DNA of 22,972 nt from a virus. The DNA lies in the IMG/VR virus record IMGVR_UViG_3300008105_000022, positions 1 through 22,972 of that record. One strand, written 5' to 3'. Below, one piece after another: positions 1-1,881 of this stretch. How positions within the stretch are numbered: position 1 is the stretch's first letter; every line of letters starts with the position of its first letter. Position numbers and translations under genes: made by a program. The notes beneath the pieces are model-generated. The model searched no databases, was not told the DNA's origin, and was given only the letters and a program-made list of their open reading frames with translations.

Positions 1-170
1 AGATCAATAGTCGGACCGCGATGCACGCGGAAAGCGTTCTGTCTGCGCTTCTGTTTACGCCAAGCATGCACGCCGACGAACACAATGCCAAGAGCATACA
101 AGACAATGAACCATGCCGAGATAACCCCAGTCAAGGTTAGCACAACAAGAGCCGCGAGAATAGGAAGCAT
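1..170 (-). CDS. Small membrane protein, C-terminus beyond the left edge
   Basis: An open frame starts with ATG at 170 and runs off the left edge after 56 codons. The start is well supported: AGGAG lies 6 nt before the ATG. The N-terminus is strongly hydrophobic, with one long or two short membrane segments covering about residues 3-34. A basic tail follows (WRKQKRRQ around residues 36-43). The layout suggests an inner-membrane protein with a cytoplasmic positive patch. It is the first gene after the roughly 800-nt structured non-coding stretch and would be on the same leftward transcript, so it is probably an early gene. I do not recognise a family. A small host-interaction protein is possible, but that is inference. 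Confidence 0.6.
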   Translation of the reverse strand, partial: MLPILAALVVLTLTGVISAWFIVLYALGIVFVGVHAWRKQKRRQNAFRVHRGPTID

Positions 171-208
171 TGTATTCTCCTCTGTATCTCTACTTGAATA
201 ATCAAGCA

Positions 209-338
209 TTAGTGAGTTACAAAAACGGATAGATACAAGGTCCGCTAAGACCCTGTAACCGTATGGATGCAATCCTGCATCAACTTTTATCGGTCTATAA
301 GTTAGCGCTTACGTCTATCCGCTTTTGGAACTCACTAA
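209..338 (-). other. 25-bp near-perfect helix closing a branched RNA domain
   Basis: The arms at 209-233 and 314-338 are inverted copies of each other. On the minus strand they give 23 Watson-Crick pairs, one G-U pair and one mismatch. The 80-nt interior holds a perfect 6-bp tetraloop hairpin at 266-281. It also offers alternative pairings, for example between the CGCTAA and TTAGCG blocks. The helix is long enough to be an RNase III substrate. It ends about 38 nt before the next start codon, so it may separate the RNA from the downstream gene. Confidence 0.6.
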
Positions 339-950
339 GCACAACTAGCGTTATGCCTAGTGAGAACACCAATCTAGCCTTCGCTAAGCATTCGCGGCTT
401 ATAACCTCATCAGCAACAAAACATTCGGAACTCGCGTTTGTCGAATGTCCTTGTCGTTGCATAGCTATAAGAGCTAGCACTTAACACGGCTCTACCAGAG
501 ACTTAAGGCTTGCGCTTGCACAAGTGTCGGACTGCCGACTGTTCGTGCAAAGGGTTCCATCCTGCTAGCTGCACTCGATTAAGAGCGACCGTTTGTCAGA
601 CAGTCTTGCTAGGTAGCCCGGCTCTCCACCGGATTTCATCCCTGCGAGGCTATCCCTAGTGTCATGACTAGAGAACACGGTGCAACTCCCGCCACCGCCT
701 GTTTCGCCTTCATTGCAGCGTATCCGCGCTTGCTTCGGAATACCCTTTAAGCCGGTATCTAGCTTTCAATTCCTTACAGCATTAGGCTTATGCTGTCAAC
801 CTGTTTGTGAGGGAAGCCTCACTATTTATATGCTTATGTCAGTGTCGAGAGTTACAGAGCTAGGAACACGTTGCCGAAGCGGTTTGTTACCTAGACCGTC
901 ATTCCGATCTGACTGATCCCTTATAGAGCATCTTTAGATCGATGTCTATA

Positions 951-1004
951 GAGATTTATGAGATAGACCGTGAAATTCCAGAACCCGGTCTATCCTTAAA
1001 TCTC
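951..1004 (-). promoter_or_regulatory. Bipartite hairpin, possible RNase III processing site
   Basis: The lower stem is 8 bp (951-958 with 997-1004). It is separated from a 9-bp upper stem (962-970 with 986-994) by an asymmetric internal loop of 2 nt on the 5' side and 3 nt on the 3' side of the minus transcript. The apical loop is 15 nt. It starts 8 nt after the stop of the 63-aa gene. The architecture and the GATTTA/TAAATC lower stem recur in the hairpin at 5588-5632. No U-run follows, so it is unlikely to be a terminator. Confidence 0.5.
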
Positions 1005-1011
1005 TTCGTTC

Positions 1012-1203
1012 TCAAGCCTTCATAAGGCGATTGAACGCTGCGACGAAGATTGTCATGAACACGCACGACACAATGAAATTCGTTGCACTCTGGAGCGGAT
1101 AGAAACCAATCAACCCTGCTAGACCAAACGGAAGAAACAGGAACGAGAGGATTGCACCAACTAGCATCGCGATCAGCAGGACCGCCTTGGTTATCTCTTT
1201 CAT
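1012..1203 (-). CDS. 63-aa early membrane protein
   Basis: This small protein has two predicted membrane segments, at about residues 6-30 and 38-57. A short loop joins them and the C-terminus is basic (RLMKA). I chose the ATG at 1203, which has a purine-rich AAAGAG about 6 nt upstream. The in-frame ATG at 1254 has no ribosome site and lies at about the predicted transcription start. The gene sits immediately downstream of a near-consensus sigma-70 promoter, so it would be read by host RNA polymerase early in infection. Its stop is followed within 10 nt by the bipartite hairpin that opens the structured RNA region. I see no family signature. Small two-helix phage proteins of this size are often host-takeover or exclusion factors, but nothing here proves that. 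Confidence 0.55.
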   Translation of the reverse strand: MKEITKAVLLIAMLVGAILSFLFLPFGLAGLIGFYPLQSATNFIVSCVFMTIFVAAFNRLMKA

Positions 1204-1246
1204 ATTCTGCTCTTTCTCTCTAATCAGGATCAGTTGGTCAATCCAA

Positions 1247-1329
1247 CCTTGCATCTGTTATATCCATACTGATTGTGTCTGTCAATCCCTTTTTATTGCA
1301 TCCTTGCATTTTTCTGATGCATCCATGCA
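1247..1329 (-). repeat. CCTTGCAT-type short repeats flanking the early promoter
   Basis: CCTTGCAT occurs exactly at 1247-1254 and 1302-1309, and CCATGCA at 1323-1329. In plus-strand reading the last two lie in a 13-bp direct repeat with a 21-bp period (1297-1309 and 1318-1330). They are embedded in an ATTGCAT/ATGCAAT dyad (1295-1301 with 1325-1331). The sites bracket the -35/-10 elements on both sides, the arrangement of an operator pair. Confidence 0.4.
1250..1285 (-). promoter_or_regulatory. Host sigma-70-type promoter (early, leftward)
   Basis: On the minus strand, TTGACA (1280-1285) is followed by a 17-bp spacer and TATAAC (1257-1262). This is a perfect -35 box and a five-of-six -10 box at optimal spacing. 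An A-rich run sits just upstream. Transcription would start near 1250 and run into the 63-aa gene and the structured RNA region. Confidence 0.7.
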
Positions 1330-1763: not shown

Positions 1764-1847
1764 TATGTATTTTCAGGATTAAATACTTCTGTATATTTAA
1801 GGGCTATGGGGGGAATCCAGCATCGGCAGATTGTTAGATACCCGCAC

Positions 1848-1881
1848 AAAAAATTCTGCAATTTTCGCCATCAGCCAGAAT
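1848..1881 (-). terminator. Likely rho-independent terminator ending the late operon
   Basis: ATTCTG and CAGAAT form a 6-bp stem with a 17-nt loop (1876-1881 with 1853-1858). A run of five to six U follows on the minus transcript. It lies about 65 nt after the stop of the 237-aa gene, the last late gene. The stem is weak, but the U-run is good. Confidence 0.5.

Follow-up and report, generated by a model that had tools for sequence, protein, structure and literature searches.

We identified a structured non-coding RNA of about 710 nucleotides (nt) in a fragment of a T7-like phage genome. The RNA occupies positions 205..913, on the minus strand, of a 22,972-base stretch that is an entire virus record and is referred to here as the window. 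Its fold is conserved, with extensive covariation. We interpret the RNA as a member of an undescribed class of structured non-coding RNAs, about 600-850 nt long, found in T7-like alphaproteobacterial phages. According to this interpretation, to which we assign a probability of about 55%, the RNA would be transcribed by the host, freed by RNase III and active in trans.

The minus strand of the window bears genes for portal, scaffold, capsid, tail, internal virion, tail fibre and terminase proteins, named by analogy with annotated relatives. The large terminase shares 60-68% identity with its counterparts in Rhizobium, Sinorhizobium, Agrobacterium and 'Nostoc' phages of the family Autographiviridae. 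Downstream of the terminase gene come an AT-rich stretch (about 1280-1900) and then the RNA region, with which the early region opens. The first early open reading frame (ORF) past the RNA (3..170, minus strand) encodes a small membrane protein; its ATG is at 170 and its Shine-Dalgarno sequence is GAGGAG. Contig L003 is near-identical to the window and extends 3.8 kb further into the early genes.

Covariation and coding potential

Covariation was assessed by comparison with L007, an IMG/VR contig carrying a homologue of the RNA region (79-85% identity). Pairs predicted from the window alone were checked in L007. This identified 26 compensations in which both sides had changed, against a null mean of 7.6 and a maximum of 16 in 2000 shuffles. 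Within a trimmed core, 38 predicted pairs had changed. Of these, 27 still pair, 18 by both-sided change (null 2.3), and 11 are broken, compared with 35.8 in the null. The adjacent AT-rich non-coding stretch (87% identity) was used as a control; none of its 37 changed pairs was compensated on both sides and 28 were broken. Coding neighbours gave 0-1 both-sided compensations, but merely 8-19 of their pairs had changed. One control region, in group C, showed some excess compensation (P 0.018). A first-pass annotation of this DNA had proposed a densely folded RNA here and suggested covariation across homologues as a check. The comparison with L007 is decisive, and confirms the proposal.

The same annotation had counted at least a dozen local helices and placed them on the minus strand. 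The two-sequence consensus of the window and L007 contains about 25 helices of at least three pairs, and is far more stable for the minus strand than for the plus strand (-194.7 vs -145.2). Counting G-U against A-C mismatches did not discriminate between the strands. Fold energies were also calculated for the region 181-1020. These were -302.6 kcal/mol for the minus strand (z = -7.0 relative to dinucleotide shuffles) and -267.7 for the plus strand (z = -5.8). Coding controls of 600 nt from the same window ranged from z +0.4 to -4.7; hence, fold energy alone is weak evidence. The z-score was dropped as a criterion, given the overlap with coding controls, from which many relatives were not separated.

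Comparison of reading frames indicates that the RNA carries none that is conserved. Only two minus-strand starts in 205-1004 are preceded by any Shine-Dalgarno-like sequence. They give 37 and 15 amino acids (aa) and both are weak. The earlier statement that no ORF here has a ribosome site therefore holds only in that no site is convincing. Longer minus-strand frames of the RNA region are not kept in L007. The plus-strand frames at 263-484 and 680-916 are antisense to all nearby genes and diverge in L007. Conserved protein frames running through the region would have refuted a non-coding RNA, and none was found: the frames are short and lost in L007.

Extent and architecture

We place the 5' end of the RNA near 913 because of homology with L007, a probable promoter at 948-920 and the position of a landmark, M1. 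The promoter (920..948, minus strand) is sigma-70-like, with the arrangement TAGACA-17 nt-TATAAG, and is a consensus match only. Its -10 box is 39 nt from M1 in the window; the distance in L007, where M1 reads GCTTAGGCAAC, is 40 nt. A second sigma-70-like consensus match, TTGACA-17 nt-TATAAC (1257..1285, minus strand), is upstream of a small ORF. Its hexamers and spacing are those of the L007 promoter (TTGACA-17-TATAAC) and its spacer sequence has diverged. The small ORF (1012..1203, minus strand) is predicted to encode a membrane protein of 63 aa from the ATG at 1203, or 80 aa from the ATG at 1254. Hence, window positions 1012-1285 hold a promoter and an ORF, and a long predicted hairpin follows at 1004-953 (953..1004, minus strand; AGAGATTTA..GGATAGACCG paired with CGGTCTATC..TAAATCTCT). 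This hairpin is outside the RNA. L007 has the promoter, without the ORF or the hairpin, so the simplest reading is that both were probably inserted recently. The first-pass annotation had drawn the RNA as about 800 nt spanning 205-1004. That RNA is real but starts near 913, and 914-1004 is hairpin and promoter.

With promoters upstream and a ribosome site downstream, the region is very likely transcribed. Transcription by host polymerase from the sigma-70-type promoters is supported but, in the absence of transcript data, not proven. If correct, this would make the RNA the first of the infection. Action early in infection, as had been suggested, remains an inference from the host-type promoters and the position.

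All elements of the fold described here are on the minus strand, and are given from 5' to 3'. M1 (GCTTCGGCAAC, 870..880), near the 5' end, has the clade-wide form GCTnnGGCrAC. It is followed by two hairpins (776..822; pairings 822-817/812-807 and 796-790/782-776) that give no covariation information because their sequence is invariant in L007. A long pairing, present in the two-sequence consensus, joins 763-742 to 509-494. Within it, an 8-bp hairpin (653..674; TCTCTAGT/ACTAGGGA) shows both-sided change in L007. Next is a three-way junction (565..612) that is kept in both L007 and Agrobacterium phage Alfirin. Its outer helix, 612-608/569-565, encloses hairpins 605-600/592-587 and 585-583/576-574, the latter with the loop TTAATC. 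Across the L007 and Alfirin comparison, 9 of the 14 junction pairs have changed on both sides; the outer helix, for example, is CUAGC/GCUAG in the window, CACGC/GCGUG in L007 and CACAC/GUGUG in Alfirin. Landmark M2, TGGAACC (553..559), lies between the junction and a further hairpin (515..551) formed by 551-543/523-515 and an inner helix, 539-535/530-526, with a CAGT loop. Landmark M3 (GCAGTCC, 535-529; GCAGkCC clade-wide) is part of this hairpin. The junction and hairpin 551-515 are both recognisable in Alfirin. None of 500 shuffles reaches any of the covariation measures, and pairings slid out of register collapse.

A long branched arm (377..490) follows, with 10 both-sided changes relative to L007. 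It consists of helices 490-488/379-377, 486-478/390-382, 471-469/400-398, 459-442/427-411 and 438-436/431-429. A 15-bp hairpin (331..364) is identical in L007. The 3'-terminal domain (209..338) is closed by a 25-bp helix, 338-314/233-209, and ends 38 nt before the next start codon. We infer that the 3' end of the RNA is just beyond this helix. The two strands, 209-233 and 314-338, are 92% complementary, and the helix is the sole segment of 152 in the window to score at least 18. L007 ends inside the terminal domain, short of the 3' strand of the helix, which cannot be compared there. The helix had been described as closing the whole RNA, and two pairs in helices as possible only as G-U on the minus strand. 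The helix exists, but closes the 3'-terminal domain alone. It has two imperfect positions; one is indeed G-U on the minus strand, whereas the second, C-U, fails to pair on either strand.

Relatives of the RNA

In about 20 relatives that infect alphaproteobacteria, the corresponding place carries no ORF over about 0.6-0.85 kb. Annotated relatives have 1.1-1.9 kb without a convincing annotated gene, from the terminal or AT-rich region to the first early gene. The second half of this stretch, 0.6-0.85 kb, has about 50% G+C. IMG/VR relatives, found via capsid and terminase, have a gene-free stretch too. RHEph08 is an exception; its deposited record opens near the first gene. The record of Alfirin (L127:2585-4150) contains several tiny gene calls on the opposite strand, here the minus strand, across the leader and RNA region, which are probably spurious. 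The same probably applies to the label 'attachment site attL' over the RNA in RHph_TM34.

The landmarks GCTnnGGCrAC, TGGAACC and GCAGkCC occur in many relatives, across groups A-D and Alfirin. M2 followed by M3 was found in 7 regions, an order met in 0.1% of shuffles. M1 followed by GGAACC was also found in 7 regions (0.04% of shuffles). In every case the ordered landmarks are on the transcribed strand; the opposite strand has none. Covariation was evident within groups: RHEph15 and Y1_20 differ by 23 compensations (null 7.4), L199 and L202 by 15 (null 5.4) and RHEph15 and L206 by 14 (null 4.5). NMeng1 and L203 showed little compensation. NMeng1 (L123) is recorded as a Nostoc phage, with a cyanobacterial host, yet is placed firmly among phages of Rhizobiales; its true host may be a companion bacterium.

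Between groups, local similarity links Alfirin to L007 (E 2e-7), Paso (5e-19) and N37 (1e-9), N37 to Palo (5e-10) and X3_9 to RHEph15 (7e-14). These E-values rest on short segments. When a covariance model of the junction (R1) was searched against 43 records, it matched only the window group and Alfirin. Consequently, the unity of the class rests on position, the short landmarks and the terminal helix. A home-made structure-aware alignment across groups brought no clear gain. Searching phages with the whole region by blastn gave no match, and matches to DNA patterns in IMG/VR and GTDB were confined to the same two lineages.

In most relatives, a helix of 20-25 bp that closes a domain of 50-85 nt directly precedes the first gene. 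Helices scored over the 300 bases leading up to that gene reach 15-25 in most relatives, with interiors of 48-126 nt. Scores are 25 for the window, 22 for RHEph15, 22 for L201, 23 for NMeng1 and 21 for L212. Caulobacter phage Percy and Brevundimonas phage BC have comparable helices (17 each). Shuffled sequences have mean scores of 10-12, and T7 (10) and SP6 (11) are at this chance level. The helix sequences differ between groups (UUUGUUAUCUUGCAUGUACCAG/CUGGUACAUGCGAGAUAACAAA in RHEph15, UAGUUGGUUAUGUGAGCAUACA/UGUAUGCUCGCAUAACCAACUA in L201 and UUGGUGAUAGUAUGCAGCACAGGA/UCCUGUGUUGCAUUCUAUCACCAG in L212) and the pairing stays. Hence, the helix itself is what is kept. Simpler hairpins occupy the place in N37, ParMal1, L208 and phiKMV. 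For Atu_ph02 and MedPE the helix reaches P 0.05 only, and Paso, Alfirin and L209 have no significant terminal helix in this 300-base interval. Comparable long stems are present between other early genes of X3_9, RHEph15, Palo and NMeng1, and such recurrence fits a processing signal.

Several relatives have a second long-stem element, of about 100-155 nt, between early genes, at or near the stretch upstream of the endolysin and primase genes (L121:5729-5828; L124:5899-5997; L129:6862-7003; L123:37603-37758, minus strand). In NMeng1 it adjoins an annotated pseudo-tRNA. It is possibly a further processing site or a small structured RNA.

In every relative examined, Percy and BC among them, the early genes begin, or nearly begin, with a member of phrog_1448, a family of unknown function (e.g. 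L003:6982-7524, beyond the window; L121:951-1541; L125:1481-2020; L218:1401-2120). The encoded protein is a candidate partner of the RNA. The link is only positional, since the family is also found in phiKMV-like phages; it is absent from T7 and SP6.

Possible roles and known systems

In the mechanism that we favour, the RNA would be transcribed first in infection by host polymerase. RNase III may then cut the terminal helix and release the RNA from the early mRNA. The freed RNA would act in trans as a folded molecule, alone or with protein, perhaps in host takeover or in protection of the incoming phage. The structure rests on covariation; processing and function are inferred, in the absence of transcript, cleavage or phenotype data. 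In T7, RNase III cleaves the early mRNA between genes, and one of these sites, R0.3, immediately precedes gene 0.3. A duplex of 20-25 bp with almost no imperfections, in the equivalent position, would probably be recognised by RNase III, and its cleavage would free the RNA. A more specific version, in which the RNA is the first product of infection across this T7-like branch and, once released by RNase III, serves host takeover as a trans-acting machine or scaffold, perhaps with phrog_1448, remains tentative and falls somewhat short of even odds.

The RNA might instead be a giant cis-acting 5' leader, with no separate RNA formed. It could protect a 0.7-kb transcript that is not translated against Rho and nucleases, or control transcription or translation of the early operon. 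The region directly precedes early genes in every relative, conserved phrog_1448 is among the first few genes, if not the very first, in all, and no terminator was found between the RNA and the next gene, so that the RNA could be mere leader. However, its size and many conserved loops (UUAAUC, AUGGAACC, CAGk) exceed the needs of known antitermination or translational leaders, and the immediately following gene varies (small membrane proteins in the window, N37 and Palo). Trans action is somewhat likelier because the conserved features are internal loops and junctions, not gene-start elements. A cis role is a doubtful but tenable account. More restricted still is the idea that only the terminal helix functions, as an RNase III site of the kind found in T7 early mRNA, and that the remainder is a passenger. 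No other element is kept as widely as the helix, similar long stems lie between other early genes and a hairpin occupies this position in phiKMV. Against this, all compensatory changes relative to L007, which stops before the 3' strand of the helix, are outside the terminal domain. We consider a role for the helix alone improbable.

Inverted repeats acting as DNA, in an origin, packaging or recombination site, could be expected near a genome end, where this region lies, and the G-U count leaves that reading open. The nested multi-helix architecture with conserved loops, the greater stability of the minus-strand consensus, the upstream promoters and the downstream ribosome site all speak for RNA, and a DNA-level signal is very improbable. 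The poorest candidate is a divergent GOLLD, ROOL, OLE, HEARO or intron missed by current models. It would agree with the length and phage context, which resemble those of GOLLD and ROOL (PMC12286853), but the 22,972-base window is without tRNA genes (the remainder of the genome was not covered) and the Rfam models gave no support. Strict and relaxed searches of the window and relatives (4227 models, E <= 10) returned only UCA1 at E 8.9, a chance hit. No covariance model for GOLLD, ROOL, group I or group II introns, HEARO or OLE matched. The first-pass annotation had recognised no landmarks of GOLLD or ROOL, and had advised searching all Rfam models, HEARO included; its impression is borne out. 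Its suggestion of a new class gains support from the covariation, the lack of a conserved frame and the lack of an Rfam match.

The RNA looks like an undescribed class within the large structured phage RNAs of unknown function. To our knowledge, few RNA classes of such size and complexity exist, and the phage examples, GOLLD and ROOL, are still without a function. GOLLD, too, is a large non-coding phage RNA with multiple helices; many of its members exceed 800 nt, and one end is more conserved than the other. It differs in that its expression is reported during lysis, and the window RNA is at the early-region start of T7-like phages, not at tRNA islands. ROOL shares the large ornate form, the phage or prophage setting and the want of a known protein partner, but lies in another genomic place. 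Both RNAs are often near tRNA islands and form RNA cages (PMC12286853).

The T7 leader is similar in being host-transcribed, at the left end of the genome, with a double-stranded element a short way ahead of the first early gene. The window meets two features of such a leader: host-type promoters upstream (consensus matches at a position shared with L007) and a long double-stranded element, here 25 bp, before the first early gene. However, only about 175 nt separate promoter A3 from gene 0.3 in T7, no long helix was found there and phrog_1448 is missing; we know of no conserved leader fold in T7. The packaging RNA of phi29 (174 nt) binds the packaging motor. This RNA is also structured, and its gene lies at the left end of a podovirus genome, but the phage is unrelated and nothing ties the window RNA to packaging.

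No earlier description was found in open-access papers; subscription papers and preprints were outside the scope of the search. The Atu_ph02 genome paper does not mention a non-coding or intergenic feature (PMC6630229). The 'empty' leaders of T7-like phages can harbour conserved genes, and the class would be categorically new if a distinct trans function were shown. The carriers are small T7-like phages, and several grow on ordinary laboratory hosts: Atu_ph02 and Atu_ph03 infect Agrobacterium C58, and the RHEph phages infect Rhizobium etli. Such hosts and the presumed position as first RNA make the function of a giant phage RNA directly testable.

Two other features of the window lie on the far side of the RNA promoters. 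A short block like TTTTTnnGnGCGGGTATCTAA...CCCCCC (1800-1870, minus strand) recurs past the late genes in many relatives, twice in Alfirin, and is a candidate packaging or end-of-late-transcription signal. The neighbouring positions 1947-2660 encode a 237-aa protein, of which residues about 131-230 have 43-49% identical relatives in many otherwise unrelated viral contigs.
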